Source: Bryum argenteum
Taxonomy: Eukaryota; Streptophyta; Bryopsida; Bryales; Bryaceae
Direction of reading: 5' to 3'
Assembly (NCBI GenBank): GCA_037043015.1
Contig: CM073327.1
Location: 5,066,727-5,130,726 of the forward strand
Length of the DNA: 64,000 bases
Shown: positions 3,731-62,759 of the stretch, in pieces
Position numbering within the stretch: the stretch's first letter is position 1
How the letters are laid out: every line of letters starts with the position of its first letter
Notes under the pieces: model-generated
Seen by the model: the letters and a program-made list of their open reading frames with translations, nothing else
The model's database searches: none
What the model was told of the DNA's origin: nothing
Made by a program: the position numbers and the translations under genes

Positions 3731-5599
<1,869 letters not shown>

Positions 5600-5600
<1 letters not shown>

Positions 5601-12424: not shown

Positions 12425-12907
12425 CTAGAATGCAATTGCAAAACTAAAATTAGGAAAGAAAACTTCATATTTTAGGGGGAGGCACTTCATTTTCTCTGGA
12501 AATCTTTTAGGGGGAGGCACTTCATTTTCCACCGAAATAGGATCTTCATTCTCTACAGAAGTAGACTCTTCATTATCCACCGTACTAGGCTCTTCATTCT
12601 CCACTGGGGTAGGCTCTTTATTCTCCACAGAAGTAGACTCTTGATTCTCCACCGAAGTAGGCTCTTCATTCTCCACCGGGGTAGGCTCGTGATTCTGCAC
12701 CTGGGTAGGCTCGTGATTCTGCACCGAAGTAGGCTCTTGATTCTGCATCGAAGTAGGCTCATGATTCTGCACCACCGAATCAGGCTCGTGATTCTCCACC
12801 TCCACCGGCCTTTCAAGATTTTCAGTGGTAGCTAGGGTGCTCTCGATCTCAGAGAGTTTCCTCATTTTTGTCCTCTTACATTTGTCTCCCCAACTTGATA
12901 CCTGCAA
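12425..12907 (-). pseudogene. EPTSV-repeat protein, copy B, without its start
   Basis: This is the paralog of 2,305-2,853. The frame beginning SSWGDKCKRTKMRK is open and has more 8-residue repeats than copy A (roughly twelve, e.g. QNHEPTSM, ENEEPTSV). The ATG used in copy A is ATA here, and the C terminus differs after PEKM. The local sequence GGCACTTCATTTTC is duplicated at about 12,480-12,525. The linked upstream frame (12,944-13,132) carries a one-base insertion. It may still be an exon of a spliced gene, but as a single ORF it lacks a proper start. Confidence 0.4.
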
Positions 12908-15560: not shown

Positions 15561-15633
15561 CTAGTAAGTGTAGCAAGGAACGTTAACTTTGAAGCTCTGG
15601 ACAGCGAGCTTGGTAATGTAGTGAAATACTTGG

Positions 15634-15987
15634 TTGATGGTGGTTGCGAATCACTCGAGGTTGTGGTTTGAAGCAACATCCGGACTGTATGCAGCACCAG
15701 CCATGCTCAAGATTGGCGGAGCCAATACTGCAAGCGACAACAACAGATATATGCAGGGGTATTTTGCCGCTGTCCACCTGCCCCTGGCCGTTTCAAACGC
15801 ATCCCCTTCTCATCACGGACCACGTCGAGCATTCACGTGGAACTTTCAGGAAGATATCTCCGCCAAAAGTCTAAATCACATTATCATAGCATCCAGGACA
15901 CGGGGAAATGGGGTGCATCGTCCAGACAAAGAGCCTCTTGCACTGCAAGATTGCCCAGTCATAGCCCCCGACGTAAGGAAAGATTGA
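15634..15987 (+). CDS. Hypothetical 117-aa ORF, copy B
   Basis: The protein is unrecognised. It contains GLYAAPAMLKIGGANTASDNN, GYFAAVHLPLAVSNASPSHH and a basic C terminus. The start lies inside a block matched in copy A, where indels interrupt the frame. Codon use cannot be judged from one short frame. It is listed because the block is of higher GC and conserved between the copies, but it may be non-coding. Confidence 0.2.
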   Translation: MMVVANHSRLWFEATSGLYAAPAMLKIGGANTASDNNRYMQGYFAAVHLPLAVSNASPSHHGPRRAFTWNFQEDISAKSLNHIIIASRTRGNGVHRPDKEPLALQDCPVIAPDVRKD

Positions 15988-16782
15988 TGTCATTCCCGAT
16001 GGTAAGTCTGTTCAGAGGTCTCATTTGCATTCGGTCGTCCAAAATGTTGCAGCCAAACATCTCGAGGCGGGGATGTGCGTTGACTGGTCAGGCACGTCGA
16101 TATGAATCTTGACCAGTTCACATTCCCATCAGTTCCTCACTAGAGCACCCTAAAGTTTTATCAGAACTTGACATCACCGACATCAGGCGGACAAAAACGC
16201 TGACAACGACTAAGAAGAAATGGATGCCACCAACAACTAGCAACAACTAGGATACGTTGAAAGCGGGCACCCCTCGTCATTACCACGTGTCTCAACACCC
16301 TCGAACACCGACCGTCTACTACTAGTCGTCCAGATGAATCTGAAACGGTTCGTAATATGAAGCATTGACCTCTTTGAACGGTGTGCATCCACTTGAGGAG
16401 AGCCAACGTCGATTTGGAGGCTCTCAGTTGACGTTGACCTGATTGTCCCTTTTTAAAATGTGCCATAACGCTGCACCCGAACGTGAACATGTAATGGTGA
16501 TATAGACACATCCTTCACCCAAGATCCCAATTGAAACTTCATGCAACTTCAAACCCAAATACATTGAGATCGGAACACCAAAACCATCTTCACAATGAAG
16601 TGATATTTGTAAACATGGCCCAATATCATGCCAAGTAAAGTTTTGGTAGTGTCTTTGACATGCAAATGCTGAAACACATGTATCACATAAGTTCTAATCT
16701 CATAAAGATTCGCAAGATCCTGATCTTCTACCAACAGAAATTGATGCTGATCAAGGACGACACTGATTTCACTGCAAAAGCC

Positions 16783-18151
16783 CTAACCGTGGTTGAAAAA
16801 CGAGGTTTCTGATGGCTCGTTCTCAACTGCACTTTCAGCTAGTGCTACATTTAAATCTATGTCCTCATCCTCATCCCAACTCCAATTGCCTAACACCTGT
16901 TCCATGGAATTGAGGTTCTACGAGGGCGGGACGAGAGTCTCCGAGGGCGGGACGAGATTCTGTGAGGACGGGACAAGATTCTCCGAGGGCTGGATGAGAT
17001 TCTGGAAGGGCGGGACGAGATTCTCCGAGGGCGGGACGAGATTCTCCGAGGGCTGGACGAGATTCTCCGAGGGCTGGACGAGTTTCTCCGAGGGCGGGAT
17101 GAGATTCTGCGAGGGCGGGACTGATATGTTGAAGTAAGGTAGTCCCGTCTGGTGGCCGTAGTAGGGGGCGGGTGGGTTATTCAACGTCGGCCACGCACCA
17201 TGTGCAGGCATCGGAAAAAGTATCCACATCGGTGCAGATGGATTCTGAGCGATATGTTGTGCAGCTGCAGCAGACTGTGTCGCTAGTCCCCCTCCAAAGC
17301 TGTTGCAAAACCGTCACAAAAATGCAGAGGGAATGAAAAAGAAAACTATGAGGACATGCATGCGAATCTCATAATTTCCTATCACTTCTCCAAAAGCAAG
17401 ATCACTAAGGGTGTTGATCGAACTTACAGGTTTGAGCTGTGCAAGATCGAGAGCTGCTGTTGCTTGTGCTTTTCCACCAATTCATGTGCTTTTTGGACTT
17501 CCTCTTCCTGACGATCTGCAAAGCGTTGAGAAGTTAGTGAAAAGCTCAATGTGGGCAGATACGAGCACTCACCGAATTGAAAAAGCAATTAGAAGATAAA
17601 ACTGAAGGATAGGAGAGAAAGGAACCTTGGCTGTGCGTATGCATGTGGCCTCCAAGAGCTTGCGCCTTGTCGAAGACCTTTCCGCAGAAGCGACATGGGA
17701 AAGTCTTACCCAGCTTCGTATTCGGCTCATCGTTGGGATTTTCATTCTTACGCTTCCTCGACTTGGTTGGCTCCGCTTCATCTTGCCGCTGATCGCCGGG
17801 TGCTGCAAGCGTGTCATCACGTAGCTGATCGCCGGGTGCTGCATGCGTTCCACCATGTCGCTGATAGCCGGGTGCTGCAAGCGCTCCAGCATGAAGCTGA
17901 TAGCGGGGTGCTGCAAGCGCTCCACCATGTCGCTGATAGCGGGGTGCTGCAAGCGCTCCACCATGTCGCTGATAACAGGGTGCTGCAAGCGCTCCACCAT
18001 GTCGCGGATCGTCGGGTGCTGCTGGCTCCGCTTCATCTTGTACCTGACCGCCGGGTGCTGGTGGCTCCAATTCAACTTGTAGTTGATCGCCAGGTGCTGG
18101 AAGCATTCCATCGTGGAGCTGATCGCCGGGTGCTCCATTCGCTCCTGACAT
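16783..18151 (-). pseudogene. QALGGH C2H2 zinc-finger protein, copy B, with late stop
   Basis: Exons are 18,151-17,626, 17,515-17,428 and 17,299-16,783. The frame runs 377 codons from ATG to the ancestral TAG at 16,785-16,783, broken only by a TAG at 16,920-16,918 where copy A has CAG. The likely product is 331 aa. It keeps the AAPxYQRHGGAL repeats (fewer than copy A), the basic stretch, the QALGGH finger and the SENLVPP repeats. It loses the acidic tail with the EAR-like DIDLNVAL. The Gln that is a stop in copy A is intact here (GHQTGLPYF). It could still be expressed as a form lacking the repressor motif, so 'pseudogene' is a cautious label. Confidence 0.75.
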
Positions 18152-18499
18152 GACGACTGTTGTCAAACTCTAGCGATCCAAGAGGGACGCTCAGGTACAA
18201 GTTCACGGGCGATTTCCTCTTGTTCCTGGCTACGACGCTGAGAGCAGAGAGCAGACACACAAGTCTCCAACATAAGCCCTGCCTCCATGTCTATTTATGT
18301 GTTTCGAATGTAAATATCTTCCATTTTCGTATTATTGATTGTGTAAGTTTACCTTTTGGTTGCTTTCTATTGAGAGTTTAATTGGCCAAAAAAATTCCTC
18401 TTAATATGTGATTGGTCCATTTTTTTGAATCTCTTGAATGTATGATCATATGAAAAAAAAATTGCCCTTTCAAGATCCCATGGTCATCTTATCTCCCTT

Positions 18500-19624
18500 C
18501 TCCTGTTATCATCCTTGCGTTTTTTTACGTTTTTTTCTCAAAGGAGATAAGCTATTCAGATCTCAAGAGTACAAACTTGTTATAGAACTTTTGTAGATTA
18601 TGAGACCAAGACTTGACTCATGGGACCTTATAGATTGCATAATGTTTTATGGCGCAAAACAAATTACAAAAAACCATCATTTTGAACACTTTAAAGTGAA
18701 AATATTACCAACATGAAATTTGCAATAAACCTTAATTCCGTTAAAATGGCGGTATTCTATGTGCCATTTTGCCAAGTCCCCTATGAGCCATTGATATTGC
18801 TCGCATTCTAAAACGTGTCATTTTACAAGCATATTTTTGAATTGTAGTTCATAAGTGTTTATGCCTACAAACTGGCATGTTCATTCATATCACACATTTA
18901 CTCTGTAATATCAAGTGATTTTTGTAATATCACCAAAATTTCCATAGTATCACACTTTTATGGTTTTTGACCTTTGGACATGTATAGTCAAAGGGCAATA
19001 ATTTTGACCGTTGAGAAACATTCTTGTTTTCGAAATGCGGTTAGAAGTATTTTCCCTATCGTGTCAAAACTGGACGAAAACCAACGGTATTTTTTTCATT
19101 TTAAGCACCCCAAGAAGCGCCATTTTACTGAAAAATCGCCATTTTAACGGAATTAAGGATTTACCCTTTTAATGCAACAATGTAAAACAATTGACGCAAG
19201 AGGTGATGGCGGGAAGTCGCTAGTATTACAGTCTACTTTTGGGCTTGTTGGCCCCATGATTGATAATTCCTATCATTTACTTATATGATGTTACACTTTG
19301 GTTTTTGAATCATAATCTTTCGTTGATTGAATTTAGTATTTCTTGTCTTTGGTTTATTGGATTTCGTATTTCTTGTCAATAACTTTGTTCATTTATATTT
19401 GATAACGTTGAGCATGTTTGCTTCTACATGAGGAAATATTTGGATTGGGCCTTTTGATGAGAAACCATCCAATCTATCGGCGTAAGAAAATATAAGTAAG
19501 AAGAGAAAAGAGAAGACTACCAAAACTTTGCATCTAACTTGCTTTCACTCCTCCCTTCTTATAAACATATGATAGATGCATTGATTCACAAATTGAGATT
19601 CTCGGCCCAGGACTCCCCTCATTA

Positions 19625-43222: not shown

Positions 43223-44224
43223 CTAAGAATTACTGTCAGGATTCCAGAAAACAGATTTCCATGCATCGTCCGCTTCAATCTTGGGACGCTTCCCACTTCG
43301 ATCCTTAGTGCAGTCGAGTTCCCTCTTCTTCGTCACTTCCACATTCTCTTTAGGAGTGCAAGGCTGGAGATTGACAGCACCGAAAACGTCGAGTTGCCTC
43401 TTCTTTGACATCACTTCCACATCCCCTTCACGGATACAAGCCTTGAGATTGCCGGCGGCACCAAGAACTACACTAATTGGGGCGATGGTCGAGGCTTTGT
43501 TGTCGGCGGCGTCGATGCTGTAGGGGTGTGGTGGTGGAGCTCCACTGAAGAGGGAGTCGGGGATGGGGTCTAAGACAGCCTCCAACTGAAGATCCATGTC
43601 GCACCTCTCGTCGATGCACCGTTTCACGTCGCCTAGTGTGCTGCTCACACTGAGACCGATCCGATCCGTTCCTTCGTTGTTTGCGAGCTCGAAGCACCAG
43701 ATGTTATCTTCCTCCGTGATATATCCAAGCAGACGCGCATTCTTCTGCAAGAAAAACATGAGGTAGAATGCTAATCAATGCATCCTTTAGGGTTGCAATT
43801 CATTGTCCAACCATCTATCTTTTAGCCTTACAACGAAAGTCATCGTACTACTTTTTGCCTACACATTCACGGTACTACATTCAAGGTACTGCATTTGTTA
43901 CCTATGACGATGGAGAACTTGTCTAGAACCACAAGAGGTCTCTATTCATGAACATGTGTTCGAGCATCTTCCAAGTTTCAAAGCAATATACCTTGTGACA
44001 AAAAAAATCTAAGACATTACCTCGACGAAAGCACAAAACTCCGATAGCGGCATGTCCAATCGTTGGACTCCGCACCATGTATATTCCCCAATGTAAACTC
44101 TGAACACTTCGCACTTGCCTTTGGTAGCATCAGAAACATTGACACCATCCTTCACACCATCCTGAGAGCTCAGAGGTGGTGGAGGAGGAGGTGTTGGAGG
44201 AGATTGCAATACAGGAACATCGAT
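43223..44224 (-). pseudogene. Two-exon gene cut from its start by a CACTA element
   Basis: The coding body is the rest of exon 1 (44,224-44,021), an intron, and exon 2 (43,745-43,223, ending PDSNS). Joined across the element to 59,573-59,550, exon 1 is 228 bases and the protein 250 aa, with all phases correct. Visible parts: a short N terminus with a Pro run, then VFRVYIGEYTWCGVQRLDMP, RLLGYITEEDNIWCFELANN, DMDLQLEAVLDPIPDSLFSG and a basic C-terminal KKRELDCTKDRSGKRPKIEA that could be a nuclear signal. I do not recognise the family. A decayed paralog lies at 61,050-62,290. As it stands, the body has no start codon of its own. Confidence 0.75.
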
Positions 44225-45301
44225 CACTACTAGGTTACAGCACTGTGAACTACGGTAAAAACGTAGCTAAATACACTGGGCTCGGCCGAATTCGCTCCCC
44301 CGAAATCGTCGTTTTCGTAACAGGCGGTCGTAGCTATTAATTAACAAGCTACGTTGGGGTGTAGCATCCGTTACATTTTAGACCGGTGCCGGGTACTGCT
44401 CGTTCCCCAGCATTTGGAGTTCCCAAGCGCAAACGTTGCACGTGGCAGGGTGGTGGCCCACTTCTGTGGTTCTGCCAGATATGTACGTAAATCTCGCATT
44501 CTGAACTTTTCAGCTCGTGAGGAAATTAGTAAACAGTTACGGTAATAGATAACGGGGTGAATTACATTGACTGCCTGGTAAATATTAGAGTTTGCGGTAA
44601 GTACTCCTTTTGGTTAATAAATGGTGTAGTTGACTTTGTCAAAAGAATACGGGAATGTAACAGCCAGAAATAGATTTACTTAGGATAATAATAGAAATTT
44701 TGGGGGAATTTGGTTCATTCGATGATGTTTGTATGCGTTATATCTGCGAGTAACAAAGTGGCGTGATATTGAGACGTGGATGTGATTGAGTCACCGATTG
44801 GATTGTTAAATTAAGTAAGGATAACCATTCCCGATTGGAGGATCGGCATACCCGGCCTGTCGACATTTTCCACACAATGCACAGCATGTTCCTCAATTTC
44901 ATAATGAAATGTACATTGCATCCTAAAATACTCAGTTTTTGTACATCACCATAGAAATTAACACATGATAATTTAGATACTAATCCATAACACATTATAG
45001 GAGTCCGAAATTGCGTCCTCGGTAGGAGGACGTAAAACCTGCTGAGTTCAGAAAGGTCGAATGCCCCGCATTACTCTGCAGTACATTTTAGAGAATACAG
45101 TATGGTCTGCAAGAGTCATATATAAAAACATAATACCACATATATTGCCTCTGTCAATGGTCTCTATTGTATTCACAACATATACATGATTTACGTAGCA
45201 TGTCTGAGAATCTGCAAAAATGTCGAATTCCTCTACCAGATGATGCGTTAGTCGCGATCGTCAGCACTTGCATCCTCCGAAGATGACCCGACTTGCTCTT
45301 T

Positions 45302-48300
45302 CTAAGTTCCGTCCTCCTCCTCCGAATCGTTGGCCTTGAACTCAGCTTCTGCCTCGTTGACGTCCTCCTGTCCCTCTTCCTCACTGCTGGCCGATTTCGA
45401 AGAGCCTGATCCGCACGACTTCTCCTCCTTAGATGCCTCACCCTCCTCGTCATCATCTGATGAGGTTCTTGCACTATCCTCTTCGGTGTCAGCTGACTCC
45501 TGAGACTGCGTTTTTTTCTGGGCTGATTTCGGATTGGCCGCATGCTTTATTGCCAGCACTCTGTCCGGCTCCCCTGCCTTCCTGTTGTAGCGCCTGTGAG
45601 TCATCTCGAAGAGGCTCCAAATCCGATCGCGCTTCCCTATGGCCACCTCGTCCTCTGTGGGCACCCTCTTGAACTCATCCTCCTAAAACGGGTGTCATTA
45701 CAGCATATGTCAATGGTGAACTCAGCACTTGTGCATCCTAAGGATAAAAACATTAAAGTTCCAGTGTTAAACTAATTCGGTCACAGCACTTCATACTTCA
45801 GAAGTTCCCGCACTCTCTCTACCTTGTTACAAATGAACTCTATTGTACCTGGAATGGCAACAGTTTTCGGCAAACTTACAAATTTTGCAAAAGAAATTTA
45901 GAACTATAACTACCTATAAACATATGAGTCTGTCCTTGCCATTAACTTCTAGAAGTACAGGAAAGCACTGAGTCCTAGCGATGTGAAGATCGGAATTGGA
46001 ACATCTGATATTACAGATGTCGAGAAACATAATCAGGTGGAAGGTGGCAAATGGACTGAGGGAAGGGCTAGTTTCTACGGCGGCCACTCCTGCCAGCACG
46101 AGTTGAAACCTGCCGCCCCCGACAGTCATTGGGGCCCTGGTCAAGTCCATCTTCGCTGGGGTGGGATTCTCCACTGAGCTGCGACTGAAATACTGCCGCC
46201 CCCGACAGTCAGTGTGGCCCTTCTGAAGTAACCATCGCTGGGGTGGGCTTGTCCACGGATCAGATGTCACTCTCTCAGGTACGGATACTCAACGGCCCTC
46301 ATAGAAAGGCACGCATTGAGCTCAGAGAAAGGATCCAAAACGCAACAATCAACTGTAAATGGAATTGCAAGGAATATGGAATGGATACTTACAAATTTTT
46401 TGATCAAGCCTGCCACTCCCAGCGAACCGAGGCGGTGAGTGTATCCCATTCGCTCTGTCCTTGCATCCGCGGCCCTTTTGCATTTGTTAGATTTTTCCTG
46501 GTACGATCGGTTAGAAATGGAGGCCCAGATATTATTCCAGGCCTTGACGGTAAGACCATGAGCAATGGGGGTATACTTCTTCGAGTTATGTCTCTTCATA
46601 TGATTCCTAGTTCTCTGTCTCCTCTGCCTAATATTTGTCGCTACATCTTCTAGTACATAGTCTATATCATAGTTCCCCGGGTACAAGGACTGGACTCTAC
46701 TGGCAAATGCTCTTTTTAGTGCTTTGTCCTGATGAGGCCATGATACGTCCCATGGAAAAATCCAAGGAGCTCGTGCATGCGTGTAACTCTGCATATGTTT
46801 CCAGAAAGTCCCTATGGGTTGTCCCAACGCATTAACCTCGCATGGAGGGACATCCTTAACAAAGATCCCACATGCCTATGGAATGGACATCGCTAATGAC
46901 GTTGCTCTCGCTCGGCAAACTTACAGCTGAGGATTCTATGGAATGGGTATACATCCTCCCCGCGACTTGGCTTACCTGGCGGCCCTTTGATGCCTCCTTC
47001 GTATGCACAGACCGCTTTGACGCTTGTTCCTTGCTGCTCTCTCGAGGTGAGGGCACTTCCTCTCCTTTGCTTTTCTTCTTACCTTGACCTCCCAAAGGTC
47101 GCCTTTTTTTTTGCCAAGTCCCGCATTGCCTTCTCAATACTCTCCATTTCGGCCTGTTTCTCTGCCGCCCTCTTTTGGCGTCTTAACTCCTTCTTGGACA
47201 GCTCTGGACTTGCAGGCGGTGTTTCCTCTTCCGGCAACATCTCCTTCCTCTTACTCTTCGACTTATCTCCAATTTGACAACTGTCAGCACCGCCATCCTG
47301 CACTCTAGTTCCTCCTAGCTTTTCTTCGAGCATCTGCATGTGCAAAGACGGTAAATCGTTAGTGCGGAAGAATCGCATCTCTCTGGCGGTGATGTCGACT
47401 ACATGCACTGGCAGTTGAAATAGGAAAGAAATTAGCAGGGAAGTCACATACCTCCGCTTTGGCTCGCAGGTACTTCGCTTGCTCTGTCGGCGATAGCTTG
47501 CTGAGGATTGCGTCGAGGTAGAGTTTTGGCTCTTCCTTGCTCTTCCCCGCCGACGACTGTTTGCTGCTTGGGGACACCACAGCACTAATGCCATTGGTGG
47601 AGGAGAGGCCTTTCTCCGCGGCTTGTTCTGTCGTGGTGGCCGAGAGCTTGGAGTTACCTGCGGTTGAGAAAGGGGAATCGGAGATGGGCTACGGGATCTT
47701 CCTCTAAACTCTGCCAAGCACTCTGCTACTGTTAGGTGACATGCCTTTGGCTTCGTCTGAGGCTCAGGGCTGCGAATATAAGCATCAGTTTCGGGGAATT
47801 CAATCCCAACTGAGACCGGCGGTGTTCGATTCTGGCTTCCCGTCTCGGCATGAGGCGCTGCGGAAGGGCTTTCAATGATTGCATCAGTTGCTGCTTGTTG
47901 GCTTTCGAAGTCTTCCTGACGCGCTGCTGTCGACCTTCCTAGCTCTCCATCTGGCGCATCATTTGGGCTCCCGACCTCCACCAGAGGCGCTGCTAACGGG
48001 CTTCCCATGTCTTCATCTGCATGGGGGAACTCAATCGTACTTGAGGTGGGCGCTCCTTCAAGTAAAGGTTCAGAAAGCAAACCCAATTCCCCTGCGTGCA
48101 TCCTACCCACGTTAGTCACTTCGGAATTTTTAACCAATGATGCTGCAGGTGGAAGGTGAGGTGTGATTTCAGTGCTTGTAGCCGTTGTGCCGCAAACCAC
48201 TTCCTTTTCTCGCCTCCTCGGTGAGTCTTTGTCTTCGCCAAGCGATGCGCATTGGTGATCGGCATTGCGTTCGACAGACTTGCGTACAGATTCAGGGACG

Positions 48301-49325
48301 GCTCCTCCGAGGACGACACTTTGCATTGTACAGCACTCGGGGCACCCTTCAGAAGAGTTGCGTTGGTGACATCCCCGGCTGGTACTTCTCCTCTCTCTTG
48401 TGCATGTTGTGGAATCCCGCCATCTGCTTCGTGTGTGTTTTTGTCCACATGCTGCTCTTCACTCTGTGGGTGTAGACCTGGGAAGGTGAACCCTGCGTGT
48501 GGAACCAACGGAATTTTATATCACTCTAATTACATAAGCTCTGAAATGCACTTGGAATTCAGAATTTCTACGTGGTTGTATACCTTGGCCGTCTGCTGAA
48601 CAAGTACCGATTGGCGCATTCTCTTCTGGCTGCTTATCCGCATCCAGGTACTGCTGCAAACTCCTGCGTGCAATCTCGGTCCCCGACCTTTTCCCGCTGC
48701 TTTCCAGCAACTGCGTCCTTGCCGAGTTGTCAACGTTGTCGTCCAGCACATGAATGAGCATCTCCGGCTCCTTCTTCCTCGACCCTCCGGATTGCTGCAA
48801 CTTCTGCATAGTTTCGGAGGAACCTGTGCATTGTTCCGTGCCACCAGTTGATGGTCCAGTCGAGGTGGCAGAGACAGAGATTTTTGATTGGCGCCGGCTT
48901 GTTTTCTTCCTCTTCGCTGGCGATTTGATCGAGACATCGATCACAATATCCGCACTCCGCAGGTACATTGATATTGTCTCCTGCTCCTCAAAGGCTCCGT
49001 TCTTCTTGCGCAGGATTTTCTTCGTCCAGAGTTGCTGCTGCCCTCCTCCAATCTTCTTCCGCTTTCCTCGCTTCGTTTCCACACGGGCTTCGGTACCTCC
49101 TGACGCCCCCGTGTCCATTGCTCCTGGTGTAGGTTTGGGACTTCGCGTCGCATACGGTTGCTTCACAGGCATGGGAAGATCTGTTTTCTTGTACAAGGTA
49201 TCCACCTCTTTCACTCTCAGATCATCTCCCTCGCAATTGACACCAGTGTCATAAACACTCCTACACTGCTGTGACGGCGCATCCCCAGTACCTCCGCCAC
49301 TTGCGGCTATTTCTACCTCTCCCAT
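45302..49325 (-). CDS. CACTA-encoded Transposase_24-like gene
   Basis: A probable multi-exon gene reads leftward. Likely exons are 49,325-48,584 (start MGEVEIAASGGG, basic, low complexity), about 48,45x-47,656, 47,65x-47,452, 47,352-47,100, about 47,090-46,978, 46,854-46,393 and 45,682-45,302. The last two are best supported and join in phase 0. The first of these has DVPPCEVNALGQPIGTFWKH and an NHMKRHNSKKYTP-like stretch. The second has WSLFEMTHRRYNRKAGEPDR and an acidic tail. That pairing (GQPIG, then F..TH) is typical of the plant En/Spm-linked Transposase_24 family. The middle exons are a Ser/Pro/Glu-rich linker and a coiled coil (KKELRRQKRAAEKQAEMESI). An A9 run at 47,104-47,112 marks a change of frame between coding segments. 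Exon edges in the middle are uncertain. Confidence 0.6.
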
Positions 49326-49649
49326 TGAAGAGAGTACTGTAAGTGACAAGGACAAGACAGGTTGAGGCGGGGTATGAGAAGAACTACAGCAGAGCACGAA
49401 AACCTGTGTCTGTAGATAGAACAATGCGGGAACCGAAAAATGCTCAAACTAAGCCCACAAGAAGTAACAAGAATCAGAGAAGGAAATATGTCAACCAACA
49501 GTGTCACTGTACACCCGAGGGCATATCAACGACAAAGAACAACGTCTGCATCACGGCAAGAGGAATGCACTACGGGTTCTACATGCAATTGCAATGTTAG
49601 ATGAAGTTAGTAGCGCGAATTCTTGTCTTCAACTCTGCGACTAACCACC

Positions 49650-50430
49650 GCTCTCTGTATTCACAGGCCTGAGTACTCACTACACTCCCGACGCTCTAGA
49701 CTCAGCACTCTCTCACAGCACAGACAGATCACCCTCGACACAAACACTGCACCCTGGACACAGAGACAGACAGAGCACTCCCGACACAGAGACAGAAAGA
49801 GCACTCCGGACACCGACTAAGGACACAGGACTTAGCGACTCGATACCTCGGACGACTCCACCTCTATATACTCAAGACTTCACCGACTCCTTAGACGAGG
49901 ACGGACTACCGAGACTACACTTCGGAGACAGCACTCCTGCCGAGACAGAACTCCTGCCTTACAACACTCCTGCCGAGACAGTACTCCTGCCGCACTACCG
50001 AGACACCACTCCTGAGACAGCACGGATTACCGAGACAGCACGGACTACCGAGAAGGTGACCACTCCTCGACGCAAAAACCGAGCGACTCACCGCCTCTGC
50101 AGACAACGCTCCCGCCGAGACAAAGACTCTGCCGCACTTCAGAGACACCACTCCTGAGACACCACGGCTTACCGAGACAACACGGACTACCGAGAAGGTG
50201 ACCACTCCTCGACGCAGAAACCGAGCGACTCACCGCCTCTCCTGCCAGCCCTCAAAACTCACAGCAATTGCGATTCGCGACTCAGGACTCCGCGACTCAG
50301 CGACTCGAAGACTCCTGGACTCAGCGCTCAAAAGAATAATCGAGTCGACAACTCGCCGGAATCAAACACCTCGCGGGGTCCACACTCAAGACCCTCGGCG
50401 ACGCTCGCACTCGCATAGTGACCTCACTAC
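49650..50430. repeat. CACTA internal repeat region between divergent genes
   Basis: It is built from ACTC, GAGACAC and CCGAGACA motifs. A unit of 142 bp occurs twice: ACCACTCCTGAGACA at 50,005 and 50,147, with the following AAGGTGACCACTCCTCGACG block at about 50,054 and 50,196. Motif-rich DNA between divergent transposon genes is where promoter and transposase-binding sites would be expected. This role is inference. Confidence 0.65.
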
Positions 50431-51019
50431 TCCAGAATCAACAATGCTCTCCACTCGGACACACACTCTCCGTAATCTGCGTAATCTACGACGATGAGAA
50501 CAGAAGAATCGCTCGGAGCGTATGCAGGGGGGGAGGAAGCAAACTGAAGTGGGAAAAACGACCCCAGCAGGAGGAGGTGCGGCGTCGGTAACGGCCATTC
50601 AATGCAAGTCATCATTCACAGCACTCTGTACTTCCCATCACTCGCCGGCCCCTAGGTATGACTACTGTAATGAAGTGTGTAACGCTTGCTACTCGATTCG
50701 GAATCGTACCCACTCATGAAAATTGGATTAGCCTAATCTATTGTTTGAAAAACAAAATAATGTGGGTCAAACCGGTAATGCATTTAAAAAATCTAAGTAA
50801 TACGTACTGATTTGTATGAATATACATGTAAGCTTGGGATACGTATTTCTTTAAGTATGTATTATATGCTTTTAATATATTATATTAACCATAACTTTGT
50901 TTTGAATATTGAGGTAATGTTAATGAGATTATTTTTTTTGGTCAAATTATTTCCTTATTTTTGGTAATGTGTCACATTACGTATGTTTTGTATCATCGAC
51001 GTATTGTAGGTCTATAAGA

Positions 51020-54000
51020 ATGCCTCGCCGACACAAAGCTGTTGGGGTTTCTCAATTCACTCCTCCCACCCCAACACCTATACCCTCAAATACAGAGGAC
51101 ATTCCATCCTCGCCGCCCAGAACAACATACTCTAGAAAAAGAAGAAGACGGGAAGAAACAACATTGGAAGATGAACCCGATATACCAGAGTTCAAGGTCT
51201 ACTGCCCATGCTGTAAATGTGCACAATTGGATAAGCCAAGTATGAGATATATCTCCATTGTTGATAGTCATATTGATCGTTATAAGATGTCCGATAAGTA
51301 TCAGGTGAATCCTTCACAACTCTTATCTTCAATTCCTGAATAGTATGATTCTTGTAGTTACAGTATAAAAATATTATAATATATAAAAATGAAATTTGTA
51401 ATGACAAGGTAGGGTGTGCACTTGGTATTTCAAGGGGGTTGACAATAACTTCCAATAAACAAGGGTTTATGTCGAAATCGTCAAGTACTATTTCATGGAG
51501 TTTTGAAGATTTTTTGGATCGCAGATCAATTAATTTTAATTCTAAGGCAATACAACCCTAATTTTTTCCTCTGTCGCAGAGATTGTATGAGGCTCAACGG
51601 TTAAGTGTGGACCCTTCCAGTTTGGATCATAGTTTTGACGGCACAGAAGAAGTGGAAGGCAGTGAAGAATTATTTCAGGAGGATGATATATATCGAGACG
51701 ACAAGTTTGTATTAGAAGAATACATGGATCTTCTTCGTGATTTCGATGCACAGGGTCTTCAAGGAAATGACCAATTTCCTCAAGACATGAAGGCTAAACT
51801 TTCGGTACTTGAACAAGAAGCTTCCACCATGATTTTTGATGGGGCAACATCAAGTCGTTTATCAATTATCTTCTTGTTCCTAACCATCCAGGCTGATAAA
51901 CAGATCTCAAATGTTGCCATGGATGCCATTTTTAAAGCAATTTCAGAGAAAGTAATCCCTCTGAATCTAAACTCCAAAATGCCTACAACAAGAGCTGAAG
52001 CACGCAAAATTGTAAGTGATGTGGGTTTTGACTATATCGTCTATCATGCATGTCCTTGTGACCTAACCCTTTACTATGGCCCTATCAAGAAGGACTTGAA
52101 ATTCTGCCCCAAATGTAATCTTTCCCGGTATAGTGAAACAACACAAAGCAAAACAGTTCCACGTAAGGTATGTTTCTCGGAGCCTATTTAATGATTGTTT
52201 CTCATAGTTCTGTACATGTGACAAATTCTTCGTAATTCGTATTTAGCCCATATTAGATGACTTAATAAATACACATTATTTTTCAGCATGTAGTACAATT
52301 TAATTTGTGACAGAATTTGTTGGGATCAAAACATTGACCTGTATAGAATGTTGATAACAGTATCAGCTACTTCACATGCAGTACCTGTTATAAATTAGGT
52401 ATGGTGTATTGTTATTGTAATCACATCCTTCCCAAAATATGTGCAACAGCATGCGTCATGGATACTTCAGAGTCGTTTGTATTAGTAAATTGCCTAAATC
52501 CAATGCAGAATTGTTTATATTAGTATATTCCCGAAATTAAAGGCATGTATGAAATCGGCAAAGCTAAAGTTCTATAACGATGAGTATAGAATGTGGGGAA
52601 AATAAATAAAAATGAGATTCCAGGTTTTTTGTATTTCCAATTCGTACTGTACAGAGTGAGTTCAATCCCAGAGAATGAAAAATGTTTTTTAGAAGAACCA
52701 AAAGTCACACTCCAATTTTATAATAAACAAAGTCTGTTAGAATGCTGAAGTTCTCAGAGTGCTCGAGTATTATCCCAAGAATTAATTACATTTGTTGTTA
52801 CTGTGCAGAGAATGTGGTATTTCCCTATAATACCACGCCTTCTTGCTTATTACCGGAGCCCAAGTTTGTCTCCTCGCATGATATGGCATCGTGACAATAG
52901 AAGTCTTGATGAGGTTATGCGGATACCGGCTGATAGTCCAGCTTGGAAGGCAATGGAGGATAAGTACGACAAAATGAAGGATGCCCGAAGTGTTATGTTA
53001 CAAATTAGTACGGACGGTATCAACCCCGCTGGGTTGAATTCAACAAGCAATTCGCTATGGCCTATTACATGCACTTTGCTTAATTTGAACCCTAAGCTTG
53101 GAATGCATAAAGGACACATTCTTTTGTCGACTATCGTTCCAGGTAATACTCCGAACATTAAGTTTTTGTCCATCAGCTTTCATTTTTTTTCCAACCAACT
53201 GATATTTAACTAATTATGGACTTATTTCGAACTTATGGACTTTTTGCAACTACTGAAGAACCTTGGTTTTATCGGCGGCCAGCCGACACATCCCCATATC
53301 TGCGACTTTCAAAAGGTCACAACTCACTCAATTTTTGTCCAAATGAAACATATGAGGTGTTTTTTGACATCTACATTTTCTGTAGATATCAAAAAACACC
53401 TCATATGTTTCATTTGGACAAAAATTGACTGAGTTATGACCTTTCAAAGATTACGGATGGAGTCTCGAGGTTATATCGGCGGACAGCCGACATTATTTCT
53501 GGACTATGAATTTGTCCATAATTAGTTAAATATCAGATAACCTTATTTTTTCTTCAACACATTTGTTACTCACTACTATATGAGACTGCGTTGTGACTAT
53601 AGTCATAGAGTACCGATTTCAACAACACCTCTGTCACGGGGCATAATAGTTCCTTTGGGAACCTAGTAAGAGTACAAAGATTGAAGGTACTTATTATAAA
53701 GGCCGACGTTTAGAAAGAACCAAAATTCGGTTCAATAAGGAATAAAAGACTAATTGATTGTGACCTTTGTGCAGGGAAAAAAAAAGTTAAAAATTTTAAC
53801 ACATACATGGAGCCGTTGATAGATGAGCTTTTGAGGTTGTGGGTGGATGGAGTTGAGGCCTATGATGCGAACACTAAAGAAAATTTCAAACTTTATGCTA
53901 TGATGCTATGGTCATTGCATGACTTCCCGGGGTATGGAGTATTTTCTTCTTTACAAACTCAAGGGTTGAAAGCTTGCCCCCCTTGTGGCCCAAATGTGAT

Positions 54001-57000
54001 AGAGTCAAAATACTGTACGTACTTGAGAAAAGTAGTATATATAGGGCATAGGAAATACCTCCCTATGAAGCACAAGTACCGGGCAAATAGAAACCGACAC
54101 AAATTTGATGGTTCTTCATATAATAAAGTTCCTAAGCCGGAGAGAACAACAGGAAAATTTTGGCTCAAACAATGGAGGAAGGTTGAAAGAAATAAAGTTC
54201 TCCTCAAAGACTCAGGCATGAAGGAAAAGTCGATCTTATTCCGTCTTCCTTACTACAAGGTTAGTACTATGGAGTTATTTACCTTTTCCCTATTTGTCTC
54301 TTACGTGCAATGCTATAGTTACTTGTACAAAGTTCCTTCGTTTAAAGAGTAGTACACATCAGAATATGAGGAAACTAGGTCACTAGAAAATGCATGATAG
54401 AAGTAGTAGTGAGAGTTTGGAATCTTTACTAAGAAACGAGTTGATGGCCAATATATTTGGATGTTGTAATTCTCAGAACTTCTTCTAAATTGTATTATAA
54501 AGTTTTGATTACATAGTTAAACCGGTAGATATTTAGTAATGAGAGATGATATGAGTTTGTAATACCGTAGTAGTAGGCATAAAAGATGAAAGAATACCTC
54601 ACCAACAGATTACACAATCTTCACATAATCTTTTGTAGATGTAATATTTACAACTAAGATAAGGTGTCATAACATTGAATATACAAACATTTACCATTTG
54701 TTACGTAGATATCTAAAAAGTGTGTATAAAAGCAAGGGGCGTTTATAATATTCCAGATAACAGTCATATATATAATTCATCATTACTACACTTAATGCCC
54801 TATTGTTTCACCCGAAGTAGTATAATAGTTAAGTTCCGAAAATAAATTATTAGTAGAATTTCATGAAATTAAGGTTGAATTAGTTAGGAAATTTGTAGTG
54901 TATGAAATAAGACTCAGATACATAACATTGATGAAATTCAGTAATTTCACTGTGCTTCAATTTTCGTAATCATGTAAGCGACCATAAATATTGTTCACTA
55001 TGCATGACTCCTTAATTATTGTTTTCACATACTTCTAAGTTCGGCCTTTTTTTGTCTACCAGCACCTACTCGTCCCTCATTTGCTAGATGTGATGCATAC
55101 GGAGAAGAACGTTTCAGCTTCTTTGCTAAAAACATTCTCAAATTGTAAGGGGACGAAGTCCGATTCACTTGCATTACGCAAGTCTTTACAACAATTCAAT
55201 GTACTGCAACGATTTCACCCGGTAGAAGATGGAGTTGATGAGAAGGGCCTAACGAGATGGACATATACGCCAGCTGATTGGATTTGGAAGGCTCCAGAGT
55301 ACGATAATATCATCCACATGATATCATCAACGCGTACTCCTTTCGGCTATGGATCAAGCTTCCGCCACAAGTTCAACAATCGTAAGCTTGTAGGTTTCAA
55401 AACCCATGATTATCATAATGTGCTTCATGATTTACTACCCATTGCCGTTAGAGGTACTCTGACGCCCGGTATTCGAAGTATTGTATACCGGTTATCCGCC
55501 CTTTTCCGTTGGGTGTGCTCAAAAGAAATTAAGATATCGGATTGTCAAAATATGAAGAAGGAAGCGGCTGAGATATTGTGTGAAATGGAAATACATTTAC
55601 CTATTTCTATTTTTGACATACAAGTCCACAATATCTTGCATATAGTAGAAGAAGTAGAACTTGCGGGCCCAGTTTCTATAAGATGGATGTATCACATTGA
55701 GCGATACCTTAAAGTATTAAAAGACTTTGTAAGACAACGAGCTAGACCGGAAGGGTCGATCGCTGAAGGATACATATGTGCTGAATCTATGTTCCATGTG
55801 AATGAATATACTCAAAGGTTGGATAGGTTTGCAACCCGATTACAAAAACCAACAGAGGAGGATGTACGATCGAAAGGGATAGTATTGCCAAAGTTATCAT
55901 CTCCTAAACCTTTGGATCCAATTTTCAGGGAACAAGCACATAGGTTTTTATTACTTAATGCTCCATGCATGGAACCTTGGAGGGAGAGATATGACTTAGA
56001 GTGTGGGGACTTGGTACATAAACCTTCATTCAAGGATTGGGTTCAAGATACAGTTCGGAATGACATATCTAAAAATAAGGCAGTGTCCCAAATGGTTTTA
56101 GATATTATACTTGGTCCAGGAGACAAGGGCCATTTCTACAGTATGTGTTGGGCCTACGGAAGTCACTATCGCATAATGGCCAGGGATTTGACCAAAAAAA
56201 CTACCTTTGACAGTGGGGTATCGGTTCTATACGACATTGGAGGGGACAAAATAGAGTTTTATGGCTACATAGACAACATTGTGAAGTTGAATTTTGATAG
56301 CTTTGAATCAGTTTTGTTCCGTTGCGAATTTTGGGATTCTATCATTAGGCAACATGGCTCAAATGCCACTGTATTAGAGGATGAATGTGGTTTCGACCGT
56401 GTTAAGGCAGGGGAATTCCTAAGGTCATCGGGAGTTGAAGATGATCCCTTTATTTTTCCAAAGGATGTGAATCAGCTGTTTTACGTAGATGATCCTATGA
56501 ACCAAGGCTGGAAGTTAGCTATTAAAGTGAAGCCGCGATCAAATCTGGTAGTATACAAGAGGCCAGAGTTGTTGGCTACAGCATCGGAGGTTGAAAATGT
56601 AAACACTTTACCTTTTCAAGGAAATTTGCCAGGACCGGTCACTGGTGAAGGAGGTGCAGAATTGTTAATTCCGGATGCAACAGTATCGGAGTTGCTGACT
56701 GTTGAAGCTGATGATGATGCCGGGGAAGATCTGGGCGTCGACGAAGAAGATGAGGAAAACAACACAGTCCTTGCGGACATGACAGCAGAGGAATATTTTT
56801 CCGATCAAGAAGAAAGACCGGCTGCCTTCTTAGATGACCCAGAGGAATTCGAGCAATTTGCGAGTGAAGATGAGTTACTAGACATTGAAAGTGATGGCGA
56901 AATGGAGAATGACACACCACTGCATCGTCTGGGTACTGCGGCTTCCGTGTCGACTAAGGTACAATACCAAGAACTCATCAAAACTACCTCGTCTTGTTGT

Positions 57001-57063
57001 CTCTACAAAAATGTTTAATTTCTACGTTTTCATTCTTCTGTACATTAGGGACGCGAAAAGTGA
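51020..57063 (+). CDS. CACTA TNP2-like transposase
   Basis: Exons are 51,020-51,304, 51,580-52,167, 52,809-53,142, 53,775-54,259, 55,063-56,958 and a 15-base end 57,049-57,063. All joins keep frame, giving about 1,200 aa. The N terminus has a Cys pair motif (YCPCCKC), as in the transposase-associated domain. Then follow MPTTRAEARKI, HACPCDLTLYYG and FCPKCNLSRY, and the core DDE region of the TNP2 family: MIWHRDNRSLDEVMR, LWPITCTLLNLNPKLGM, FNTYMEPLIDELLRLWVDGV, LHDFPGYGVFSS, KACPPCG, HLLDVMHTEKNVSASLL. DUF4218-like sequence (GPVSIRWMYHIERYLKVLKD) and DUF4216-like sequence follow, then an acidic tail. It catalyses excision and insertion of CACTA ends. Intron 3 holds a fold-back element. No internal stop is seen. 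Confidence 0.9.
53199..53536. mobile_element. Fold-back element in TNP2 intron 3
   Basis: The ends are 23-base perfect inverted repeats (53,199-53,221 and 53,514-53,536, CTGATATTTAACTAATTATG plus GAC). Inside, ATCGGCGG.CAGCCGAC occurs on both sides in inverted order. The centre is a near-perfect hairpin of about 50-base arms (about 53,331-53,440, TTTGTCCAAATGAAACATAT..) around a loop of a few bases. It probably inserted into the transposase intron. No target duplication could be fixed. Confidence 0.8.
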
Positions 57064-57874
57064 GGACGTTGGGGCGACAAGTACACCGTATCTTTATTGG
57101 CTATGGTGGCGGCGTTTTCGACTGGAACGCCACTGTTTGTCGCTCCCAGCCTTGAAGTCAAGGAGCGGGACCACTCATGTGGCCAAGGAACAGCAGTTAC
57201 AGCACCGAAACCTCCACATGTAGCCGAAAAGGCTGCGAGCACGTCATCGGGAATATCCATCCTCCAATGAGGTTATTCCAGTAAGTAATCCTGTAAACCG
57301 TAATCGGGTAATCTTTCGAGTTACTAAGTATCACCGAGGCTTTCGTCATTCGGCATCTTTGCTTGTCTCTCTCGTTAAACAGCAAGGTTGTTGCAGAGCC
57401 ATACGAACAGGATGTGAAGATGTTGTCCCAGTTGCAGCGATTTGAGTTCTTGACTTAAGAAGCACAAGTGCAACGAGTAGGAGAGTAGCCAAAGACGGTG
57501 TACAGGGAACCGGAAATTGGCTGGCCTCATACCCAGATATCCAGGTAATACTGAATCACGCCTCCACTGGTGCAATCCGAATTTCTACATCACTCTGGAC
57601 TGTCTATCGGCAGATGTAATCAGATTTTGTGGGAACCTCTACGGTATGGTGTGCTGATGGATTGGAAGCTCGTTTTGTATCTCTACTGGTTTCATGTATA
57701 CACACAGGGAACGGAAACAGAAGGTGCCGCAGTTTTAAAAACATGCTCCTGTAGTTTTCTGGTACGGCAATCGCATTGCCTTGAAATATAGAGAGCAGAA
57801 GTTGATAGCATTGTGTCAAACATGAAGTGCATGAGTTCTGACGTGTACTCTGTCGTGTAGGGAGATCTCAACAT

Positions 57875-58303
57875 ATGGCGGCCCGTACGGATTCTGGTAT
57901 CCGTCATACACCGACTACTGGCAGAACGACAGTCCGTCACTTAGGAACTGAATACCAAATTCATGGTGGCAGCAAGACAGTAACCGTAGAGCAAACACTG
58001 AAGCGAGCGAGTGGGGACGTGGACTTTGTTCCGCATCATGGATTTGAAGGCAGTGAACTCCTTCCAGCAATCCCTAATGTCATTGTGGCTGAAGAAGTGT
58101 GGCCCAAGATCTGCGGCGATAACCATTCTAGTCAGATACAGAACATGTTTAAAATGAGATTAGTGTCTAAGTTTTGGTGCGCCTTCATTGACAATACGGA
58201 GCTCATGGACCGCCATCAAATGTCCAAGTATAATGCGGTTGGTCCATGGAGATATAAATATGCTCCAGGCATGTTTCAGATTTTTGCTCGCCTCTTAGAG
58301 TAG
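57875..58303 (+). CDS. CACTA-internal ORF with F-box-like motif (142 aa)
   Basis: It lies downstream of the TNP2-like gene and starts MAARTDSGIRHTPTTG. Residues about 70-115 read LPAIPNVIVAEEVWPKICGD, QIQNMFKMRLVSKFWCAFID. The spacing and the pattern LP..I..E.WPK..., R.VSK.W..FI resemble an F-box motif. F-box proteins bind SKP1 in SCF ubiquitin ligases. It could be a captured host exon, the last exon of a longer transposon gene (a GTGTAG acceptor lies at 57,860), or a chance likeness. No substrate-binding repeats follow. Confidence 0.4.
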   Translation: MAARTDSGIRHTPTTGRTTVRHLGTEYQIHGGSKTVTVEQTLKRASGDVDFVPHHGFEGSELLPAIPNVIVAEEVWPKICGDNHSSQIQNMFKMRLVSKFWCAFIDNTELMDRHQMSKYNAVGPWRYKYAPGMFQIFARLLE

Positions 58304-58309
58304 TGCAGA

Positions 58310-59546
58310 TTGATGTCTTATTTCGTGACAATGCATTAGTCTCCTGAATGCCAGTCCATGATGCAACTAGGACTCTTTTTTGAAAAGGTCAGGGCCAAGT
58401 TCAGAGGGGGCTCGTTCTGAGGAAGGCAATAAAAGCCGCAGTAAGCCTCACCCGATGTTAATCGTAGGTATTATAAAATTTTCATACCAGAAGAGCTGAC
58501 AGAGGCGATGATTTTCTCCCTATGTGGAGCAGTGGTGGTACATTCTGATAGTGTTATTGCGTTTGTTATATTTATTTTGAGTTCACCGGTTTTTTAAGAA
58601 TCATCGAGTTTAAATGAAAATGTTTTACCAGGGCCGTTAGTTTGGCAGATTTTCGGGACATTACTTACAATGAAAGTAAATCGGAGTTCTAAATACGGAT
58701 TGTAGAAGAACACAATACGATAATCAGACATTTAGCCTAAAAGTTGGCCGAAGTTTATATGTGAGAACGGCACCCCCTATCCTAAACGTATACTAAACGT
58801 AGACAAAATTACCTCTCCATAAATCAATTTTTACGGATGTGATGGGCAAACCTCGTTATTAGCATTGATCGGTTATCCCAGTTTTGTTACGTTTGGCAAG
58901 ATAACTTACATACCACCTTTTATCCCTAAACTTATGTTCAGTAATCTAAATTATGGATTTGCTAAAATTTCGCACAAATTATACAATGTCTCGCAATATG
59001 ATATCACAATATATGTATCTGAATAAAAGGGTAAAAGAATTCAAACTCAATTTCATCATTTACCTCTTCCTAGTAATACCCAATCATCTAGTTAAACAAC
59101 TAAGTGAAATCCGAATCTACATAGGAGGAGGGATTAAATTATTTTATTTTTGCAACTGTTGTCAAAGATCCAGGTTTAAATTACTGTAAGAACCCGCTTT
59201 CCGGATAAGCAGCTAGGTAAGACGGAGTTTACTCAGTTTAAAATGCTACGGTTAATGTATAATTGCACAATCTCAAGCTGTAGCCCGCTCAGTACTGGAC
59301 ACGTGTTTTGACAGTTCTCGTAAAGATGGCGACTACAGTACTATAGCCGCGCACGAAGGGAATCCCGTCGGAGGGAACGTCGCGTTCTCCGGAAATTGAG
59401 CAGTTCTCCACGAACGTAGTGCGAACGTAGCTCCGGACAGCCGGTTTTCGATATTTTTAAAAACGTAGCCCACATCATCCGTAACGTAGCGAGATCCGGA
59501 AACGTAGCATGAAAAACGTAGCTACCAGGGCAGTATTCTAGTAGTG
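58310..59546. other. CACTA right subterminal region
   Basis: No gene is seen. The last 140 bases hold repeated AACGTAGC motifs, nearly all in the same orientation, with GC-rich DNA between (TCCGGAAATTGAGC, TCCGGACAGCCGG). In CACTA elements such subterminal motifs are the binding sites of the element's DNA-binding protein. The match of motif to protein here is inference. Confidence 0.7.
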
Positions 59547-59549
59547 GAT

Positions 59550-59573
59550 AGGTTTTCTTGTAGAGTTTCCCAT
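59550..59573 (-). pseudogene. Severed first eight codons of the split gene
   Basis: The ATG at 59,573 opens MGNSTRKP. After removing the CACTA element and one GAT, the frame runs straight into IDVPVLQSPP at 44,224. The bases around the ATG (GCTATGGG) are an acceptable start context. The promoter must lie to the right (above 59,573). Transcription from it now enters the right end of the transposon. Confidence 0.75.
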
Positions 59574-59574
59574 A

Positions 59575-61045
59575 GCTATCAATCTAAGAGATACAACACA
59601 AGTTAGAGTATAATCTATGCCTCAAAACAAGATGGAAAATCAAATGCAAATGGTGCTTAAATGCTTTGAGGCATGTGCACTTGAAGCCGTACACTTGTCT
59701 CTTTATTTAAGCATGTAGGCCACATTTCATCGTGGAGTCTTGGAGACATCCAACGTGTCCTAACCTTTTAAGTCAAAGTGTTTAAGCATCTTGCAACCAT
59801 TCAAAAATCTATCTTCAAATATATGCGACATGCACAAGTGTAATTATGCTTTTAGGTGGATCTCTATTATGACTTTTTTTGGTCGTGTTTTCGGAACTTT
59901 TTTCGTACGTTCTCGATTGCTAACTTTTGTTCATAGTTTTGCTTCAGATTCTACACGAGGAATGATTTTATAGTTCTTTTCCCTCTTAATTACTAGCATA
60001 TCTTTTATGTGTTTTTTTTTCCCCAAATGAATCAGCAATCAAGTACTAGGCTACTTAGTTGGTGCATTATCTAATTTACCATCAAATCAAAGCCTAAAGG
60101 CGAGATCTCATGGTATTTGCGGCGAAGCACTCTATTCGTGTCGCGGCTCATTGTTGTGTCTGTTAGTCGCGCTTTTCTTTTTCTCTCGTCAAAGTTGATG
60201 ATTCTAGAATCATAATAGGATCAATAAGCTTATCACTTTCGATGGAAAAGGCTAGAAGATAAAATAATATGGGTGTTTTTGTAATAAAGATTAGGGGATT
60301 TCTACCTATTATGGCCATATTTGTTAGAATTCAAGATATTTTCAGTGAAACTAAAACATTCTTGAAGCAAAGATAAGTCTTCATTAATCCACCTTATATA
60401 ACACGCATCAACATGCAATTCATTGGGATATTCTTGGTCGAAAGCTTGACATGCACATGGAGCCATGTGTTAATGTGCAATTATCATAAAATATTATAGA
60501 TTTTGTATTTTTCAAGTGTCAAATTTTTATTTGGTAACCTTTAAGAATTCCCCTCTATATCAATGGTTTGTATCTACATGGTATATTAAATTGAATTAGA
60601 AAGTAAATAGGTACTTCACCAAACTAGATGCCTCTACCTTAAAAGTTGATGTTGGGTACACATTGATAATGTTCCTCATGCATTGAATGTCATCAATTAA
60701 TTTTTATTGAAATAGCAACCAACCGTATTTTAAAACTACAATGCATAATAAAAATTCATGTTTGATTCAAAACTTACATAATAAAATTATTAGTTTTAGG
60801 TCAATTTCAATTCAATTTAGTTTTTTGTTACAATAAGAAATTTTTTAGAGTGATCAATTTTAATACTGAACACTCACAAAATCCACTAGAAGTCAAGCTC
60901 ATCATAATAAAATAGTCACTAACTTGGTACATTAGAGCTTGAGCACTTACAAAGGAGGCAAAATTTAACATCTACATTAAGCTTTACAACGCACATTTAA
61001 TGAAAATGTGATTTTTAGATTCCAATATTGCTCACAAGGACTAGT
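59575..61045. other. AT-rich flank of the split gene
   Basis: This should contain the promoter of the split gene. A TAAGAGATACAACACAAGTTAGAG block at 59,584 is echoed near 63,033 (TAAGAGAGAGCAGCAACACAAG), upstream of the decayed paralog, which supports a tandem duplication. No other gene is supported. Confidence 0.45.
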
Positions 61046-61049: not shown

Positions 61050-62290
61050 CCATGTGTTGTGCAAGTGCCACATTTTGTCTACTCTCCATTCAGAAATTTT
61101 GACACATGTAGTGTAAGGACTAGAAGGTGCTGAGTAAGCTTGACGATGGGGAGGCTCCATGATTGAGTTGCAGTAGAGACTTAGAGGCTCGGAGAAAGTC
61201 ATATAAAAATATTTAGCTAATGTTTTGGTGATTGAAGGATTGGGAATTGTGGTGGTTTGTAAAACAGCCTCCAACTGAAGTTGCTTGTTGCCTATATGTT
61301 TAAACACCTCTCTCATGTGTTGCTCATGTTGAGACGAACCCGGTGCTTGCTATTAATGCTTACTAGCTCAAAGTACAAGATATGATCGTATTCCGTGATG
61401 TGACCCAAGGAGGCGGACGTCTTTCTGCAATGATGTAAAAACACTTAGAATACTAAGCATTGTTTTCTTCACATTTTCAGAATTTGCAATCACTAATTTA
61501 ATGTTTATACTCATTCTTAAAGGTTCCCGGTGATGTTTTTGGTACAATTTATTTGGATGCATATTATGACGAACAACATATCTTAATTGTTTTTTTCTTA
61601 TAGAAATATTGCTAGTAAGGTTTCTTTGCCTTGAACCCCATATTCGTTAAATTGGCCCAATCCCCTTTATATTTGGCCGCACACTATTCAAATAAATAGA
61701 GTAAAGTGAAACAAAAAAGTTTTAAGATGGGAAAATATATTAATAATTTATTTTAGTCCTCTCAATGCATGTTGATTTTAATGTAATTATCTGCATGGCA
61801 TTGTTTTCATTTGTGCTATATACACTATTTCAAGCGGCCAAAATAATAGGGATTGGCCAATTTAACGAATATGGCCTTCTTGACATCAACACAAGGGCTT
61901 ATATTAAGCCCTATACTTAATTCGCAACTTCTACTTCGTAAAACTTCTTTTCTACACTTGTTAAAAACATCATACGAAAAGAACAAATTAATATTACTTT
62001 ATTATAGAAAATTTGCTTGTGTTTGCTACTCTTACAACAAAAAAACAAATTAAAAACAACATATGTGATAAAACATACTAACCAAACTTATGAGTGCCTT
62101 ACAACTGCATTACTTCCCTTACATTGATTAGATGAACAACTTGAACTTATCTCATGCAAAAATGCTTGAATTTGTTATCTCAAATTATAACAGTTAAGTC
62201 TCAAAGGAACATATCTAGTCGTTGAACTCCAGACCATGAATATTCCCCAATTGAGACCTAAAGACTTGAGAAAAACCCTCCGCTACATCA
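61050..62290 (-). pseudogene. Decayed paralog of the CACTA-split gene
   Basis: An exon-1-like segment at about 62,213-62,290 reads ILDVAEGFSQVFRSQLGNIH against NVSDATKGKCEVFRVYIGEY. An exon-2-like segment at about 61,430-61,150 reads KDVRLLG, then after a one-base shift HITEYDHILYFELV against YITEEDNIWCFELA. It ends with KQLQLEAVL against MDLQLEAVL after an in-frame stop. The splice acceptor before exon 2 (TTGCAG) is kept. The frameshift and stops make it a pseudogene. Its order and strand match the split gene, so the two form an old tandem pair. Confidence 0.8.
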
Positions 62291-62328
62291 AGAATCTTGT
62301 TATCATCATACGACCTAAAAGCTTGAAA

Positions 62329-62755
62329 CCTCAATTCCGTTGAAATGGCACTATTCCATGTGCCATTTTAGCCGAGCTAAAGTGCCATATTGTGCAAATG
62401 TGCCATTTTACAAGCATATTTTTGAATTGAAGTTCAGAAGTATTTATGTCTACAAAATGGCATGTTTATTAACATCACACATGTACTCCGTAATATCACC
62501 AAAATTTCTGTAATATCACCAAAATTTCCATAATGTCACACTTTTATGGATTTTGACCTTTGAACACAATAAAAGGGCAATATTTCTGAACGGCCGTTCA
62601 AAAACATTGTTGTTTTTGAACGGTCGTTCAGAAATATTTACCATATTATGTCAAAACTCAACAAAAACTCGACAAAAACCAACATCAATTTTTCATTTTA
62701 AGCACCCCAAAAAGCGCCATTTTAGCGGAATAACGCCATTTTAACGGAATTGAGG
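62329..62755. mobile_element. AT-rich MITE family, member 4 (427 bp)
   Basis: The ends read CCTCAATTCCGTTGAAATGGC and its inverse GCCATTTTAACGGAATTGAGG, with AAA/TTTT outside that may be part of the terminal repeat. Inside are a GAACGGCCGTTCA palindrome twice (62,588 and 62,618, the second as GAACGGTCGTTCA) and three TAATATCACCAAAATTTC modules. It lies between the decayed paralog and its presumed upstream region. Confidence 0.82.
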
Positions 62756-62759
62756 TTTT

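Follow-up and report, generated by a model that had tools for sequence, protein, structure and literature searches.

Among open-access reports, the closest counterparts of the element reported here are the soybean elements Tgmt* and TgmR* and maize Spm/dSpm, which resemble it in having CACTA ends, a 3-bp target site duplication (TSD) and subterminal motifs (PMC2613891, PMC4219821). The Spm/Tgm elements likewise encode a tnp2 transposase and interrupt a host gene, and those of soybean are 13-20 kb in size (PMC2613891, PMC4219821). Tgmt* is described as a 20.5-kb element in an intron of F3'H (PMC2613891). In lettuce an LsC1-like CACTA element is, like the present one, located within a first exon, that of LsKN1; LsC1 is without a transposase gene and the LsKN1 copy is near-identical to it (PMC8195511). 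Here, a stretch of 64,000 nucleotides of moss DNA (the window) was analyzed, in which a CACTA element separates the first eight codons of a two-exon gene from the remainder of its first exon.

Results

Borders and target site of the element

The element and the sequences that define its borders are as follows.

44225..59546, plus strand: CACTA (En/Spm-type) DNA transposon of 15,322 bp, ends read directly
44222..44224: left copy of the TSD GAT, equal to codon 9 (ATC/Ile) on the minus strand
59547..59549: right copy of the TSD GAT, sequence read directly
59424..59522: right subterminal motifs AACGTAGC (plus-strand reading), five of the six occurrences in the window

Both termini carry the 9-bp terminal inverted repeat (TIR) CACTACTAG by which the CACTA superfamily is recognized; the left end of the element reads CACTACTAGG and the right end CTAGTAGTG. 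The 3-bp TSD of the superfamily is present at the split gene as GAT. A sixth AACGTAGC was found at 44260, near the left end, so that, as plain counts, all six plus-strand occurrences in the window are inside the element and five of them fall in its last 125 bp. By its ends, its TSD, its tnp2 transposase and its subterminal motifs the element is a member of the CACTA (En/Spm) superfamily.

Coding regions and a nested insertion

Two gene regions and one smaller insertion were located within the element.

51562..57018, plus strand: TNPD-like transposase gene region, assigned with Pfam
45157..49448, minus strand: second element gene region, open frames, TNPA-like by position only
53197..53539: nested insertion of about 345 bp with inverted ends, absent from the closest copy on C10

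In the transposase region Pfam identified Transposase_21 (tnp2) in two open frames (52803-53213, E = 1.9e-18; 53807-54352, E = 1.8e-30), which cover positions 1-82 and 92-210 of the 213 positions of the profile, and DUF4218 (E 3.9e-30) together with DUF4216 (E 1.1e-7) in a third frame at 55081-57018. For the frame 51562-52188 Pfam gave no match, and it was counted in this region by position only. The second gene region and the transposase gene are arranged divergently, and the former lies on the strand of the host gene and points at the host exon. Its DNA between 46267 and 49424 matches other copies of the element, and no Pfam family above the cut-off was obtained for it, the designation TNPA-like referring to position only.

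The nested insertion contains an inner hairpin with 64-nt arms (53312-53444). The possibility that it breaks the transposase was set aside, since the insertion falls within the apparent transposase intron 53143-53774, the borders of which were inferred by eye.

Related copies in the genome

The closest copy found, C10:5391941-5406940, is 98.4% identical to the window element over 14,950 aligned columns when gaps are not counted. The two differ by 239 substitutions in these columns (1.6%) and by gaps in 422 columns, mostly one nested insertion, and the C10 copy carries a TSD of its own, AAT. A survey of TSDs started from 26 left-end matches, one of which was the window copy; 20 were used and five were dropped, either due to an incomplete right-end match (C6:3595876, C1:25840435, C2:8660398) or as no right end was listed nearby (C9:4446833, C5:18098176). 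A perfect 3-bp TSD was present in 19 of the 20 copies with both ends located, the exception being C5:13864600, and the left terminus was changed in two of the 20 (TACTA, CACAA). Copy numbers of the element from the genome searches are lower bounds. The family thus represents an ordinary CACTA lineage, of which the window element is an ordinary member. In some family copies the matching ends, flanked by perfect TSDs, lie 43-55 kb apart (C5:2162787-2217997, C9:4940397-4983496, C2:22821666-22867924), presumably due to nested insertions.

Structure of the split gene

The gene lies on the minus strand, with its parts on both sides of the element.

59550..59573, minus strand: first eight codons, MGNSTRKP; the alignment to four paralogs takes in the TAGCT that precedes the ATG
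44021..44224, minus strand: remainder of exon 1 (IDVPVLQ...FCAFVE, 68 codons), ending at a GT donor
43223..43744, minus strand: exon 2 (KNARLLGY...NPDSNS, 173 codons and stop), following a 276-bp phase-0 intron

The start codon is the ATG at 59573 on the minus strand, with an in-frame stop 48 nt upstream. On the left flank, read on the minus strand, the TSD codon ATC is followed by GATGTTCCT. When the flanks are joined with one GAT, MGNSTRKPI-DVPVLQSPP is obtained in frame, and removal of the element together with one GAT gives the joined reading MGNSTRKPIDVPVLQSPPTPPPPPPLSSQ...FCAFVE. The joined exon 1 thus reads MGNSTRKPIDVPVLQSPP...FCAFVE and is followed by the GT-AG intron and by KNARLLGYITEEDN... 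up to the stop; exon 1 ends with GAG|GTAATG and exon 2 starts after CTTGCAG, which keeps phase 0. The matching ends, the GAT duplication, the in-frame join and the preserved frame at the next splice junction, all of which had been put forward in the sequence-only reading of this DNA, were each seen in the sequence. No match to Pfam was obtained for the joined protein at E<=1, and for three pieces of its core none above the cut-off at E<=10.

Paralogs establish the gene before insertion

A search of the joined protein against its own genome gave 13 matches: two from the gene itself, eight from two exons each of four paralogs, and three more distant ones (L018, L020, L026), in which the exon-2 half alone was matched in tblastn at 35-42% identity. 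The number of paralogs is a lower bound, as the best candidates alone were scored. The four are located on the same contig at C7:5133634 (-), 5139734 (-), 6669167 (+) and 6674169 (+), and start, in this order, with MGNARGKPLDATS, MGNAATKPVRASS, MGNAAAKPIGASS and MGNAGGKPLDATS. In all four, exon 1 is uninterrupted, the protein begins with MGNxxxKP[ILV], and the intron is at the same place and in the same phase as in the split gene, where uninterrupted refers to exon 1 and the core only. The window contains a single instance of the 14-mer TAGCTATGGGAAAC, which spans the start codon (59565-59578, minus strand), and all four paralogs, two in the cluster L022 and two in L024, have this 14-mer at their start.

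Over a core of 90 residues, identity between the split gene and the four paralogs is 56-64%. The core dN/dS between the split gene and each of them (Nei-Gojobori) is 0.21-0.26, with dS of 0.89-1.34, which is near saturation for some pairs; this indicates that the core domain was under constraint over the history of the family. Over all aligned codons dN/dS is 0.46-0.57, a value that rests in part on poorly aligned tails. For the closest paralog pair, p5139/p6669, dN/dS is 0.72-0.79 on few changes, which is no demonstration of constraint on those two. Beyond the core, in exon 2, p5133 and p6674 no longer share a reading frame, and one of the two is probably frameshifted there.

Since the four paralogs are continuous through the site and share the 14-mer over the start, the flanks once formed a single exon, with its start codon at 59573. 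Judged by sequence homology, which is decisive here, this is a genuine exon-1 insertion. The proposals that a CACTA element splits the gene after codon 8 and that 59573 is its start codon are thereby borne out; the duplicated triplet is codon 9.

Apart from the intact paralogs, one further relative was found in the window.

about 61100..62330, minus strand: decayed paralog in tandem with the split gene, recognized from two remnants (62257-62210 and 61423-61316), outer borders set by eye

It sits just upstream of the split gene, and a recognizable start of the TAGCTATGGGAAAC type was not found in it. A repeat at 62326-62758 lies directly before its exon-1 remnant and recurs at 8811-9244 and 18727-19162 with 77-80% identity. 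Elsewhere in the window, 2475-8734 and 12487-18540 match over several kilobases at 78-87% identity about 10 kb apart, looking like an old tandem duplication. On the contig, L022 (C7:5.13-5.14 Mb) and L024 (6.67 Mb) are two clusters of the gene family in opposite orientation, 1.5 Mb apart, in which p5133 pairs with p6674 and p5139 with p6669; this suggests an inverted segmental duplication.

An open frame across the join is common

The sequence-only reading had argued that so exact a restoration of the frame is unlikely by chance. This was examined over 150 nt on either side of the join (a 297-nt test) as the longest open run in codons. The window join gave an open run of 74 codons, and at 19 other empty sites of the element family the runs were 33-99 codons, five of the 19 being 74 or longer. 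Openness of the join was consequently rejected as proof, and the argument from chance fails statistically; its conclusion is still right because of the paralogs. That open runs of this length are common would also be in line with a mere coincidence, in which the two flanks were never parts of one gene. This reading is refuted by the four paralogs, in which the two sides are contiguous and the start, the adjoining upstream bases and the intron phase are the same, and it retains next to no probability.

Consequences for the gene

The CACTA element moved into exon 1 of a two-exon gene and duplicated codon 9 (ATC, Ile) as the TSD. A transcript from the native ATG reads MGNSTRKPIHY and then stops at an in-frame TAG after codon 11 (nt 34-36). 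This TAG derives from the element terminus CACTACTAG, which is read CAC TAC TAG in the frame of the gene. Downstream of the ATG, GC first occurs at nt 43 and GT first at nt 49, both past the TAG, so no GT-AG or GC-AG intron that starts in the element removes the stop; AT-AC donors before the TAG were judged by eye only.

It had been considered that the transposon might act as an intron, being spliced out of the transcript so that the full protein is restored. Precedents exist: in maize, splicing can make use of Spm ends, and a soybean MYB gene carries in one of its introns a 13-kb CACTA element that is spliced out together with this intron (PMC4219821). The soybean element, however, sits in a pre-existing intron, whereas the insertion here is in an exon, where the TIR introduces an in-frame TAG ahead of the first GT or GC. 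The option does not hold in the face of this stop codon: rescue by splicing from the native ATG is effectively excluded, and the transposon acting as an intron is highly improbable.

On the other side, only 14 codons of the element are open in the frame that leads into the exon remainder, and none of them is an ATG. The first in-frame ATG in the remainder is codon 66 (Met66), inside the conserved core. Any residual product would need a start at Met66 or a chimeric element transcript. Such a transcript is conceivable if the element drives the gene, from a promoter or from its leftward second gene, giving a chimeric or 5'-truncated transcript and altered rather than lost expression; translation would then begin at Met66 or at a start codon of the element that splicing brings into frame. 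The second gene region does lie on the strand of the host gene and point at the exon, seven AG dinucleotides occur, in the host sense, in the 60 bp nearest the left end, and up-regulation of lettuce LsKN1 has been linked to the LsC1-like insertion in its first exon (PMC8195511). But AGs are expected by chance, the 14 open element codons offer no ATG, and, from the alignment, a start at Met66 would drop the first part of the core domain. Driving of the gene by the element is unlikely on this evidence, and it is slightly less likely still that the gene was rewired rather than killed, with transcripts initiated in the leftward gene yielding a truncated or chimeric protein. If rewiring were true, a gene without a known family would now be under transposon control in a haploid-dominant plant. 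The remainder of exon 1 and exon 2 are still open and their splice sites intact, which would be equally expected were the gene still in use.

The best explanation, held with considerable confidence, is therefore an exon-1 insertion with inactivation of the gene. As far as can be judged from sequence, the insertion would have left a null or strongly reduced allele, and the diverged paralogs may or may not cover for the lost gene. Excision would be the simple way back: by arithmetic, precise excision would restore the frame and excision that keeps both TSD copies would add one Ile, both outcomes keeping the frame, given that the duplicated triplet is a whole codon. An element-free allele would read continuously MGNSTRKPIDVP at the site. 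Most likely, the present sequence represents a loss-of-function allele that could revert by excision.

Age of the insertion

That the interruption came while the frame was intact, as had been proposed, is supported by the paralogs. The intact remainder dates the insertion only weakly, because few disabling mutations are expected at about 1-2% divergence. Dating by element divergence was rejected, as the 1.6% relative to the C10 copy dates the separation of the two copies only and does not tell which of them moved.

Discussion

The locus provides a clean natural insertion allele, the sequence of which before insertion is backed by paralogs. The plastid contig C12 marks the host as a land plant: the best solved relatives of its PsaB are 7ksq, 6l35 and 8htu, with equal scores, and 7ksq and 6l35 are from the moss Physcomitrium. 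In a moss, a plant that is probably haploid-dominant, such a single insertion would show its effect directly. A rule of more general use follows from the TIR: the first nine bases of an element ending in CACTACTAG contain a stop codon in one of the three frames in which translation can enter, a fact of use in judging whether an exon insertion can be spliced around.

The differences from the described systems concern position and gene arrangement. Tgmt* and TgmR* are located in introns, whereas the window element is in exon 1, where the TAG of its TIR blocks rescue by splicing. In Spm, alternative splicing yields the tnpA and tnpD transcripts (PMC2613891), whereas the window element has a second gene region that diverges from its transposase gene. 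The insertion in lettuce LsKN1 shares the position in a first exon; it is about 3.9 kb in size, against 15.3 kb for the window element with its tnp2 transposase frames, and is associated with up-regulation of the host gene (PMC8195511). Otherwise nothing at the split gene departs from known CACTA insertions, and the locus is most likely an ordinary transposon knock-out.
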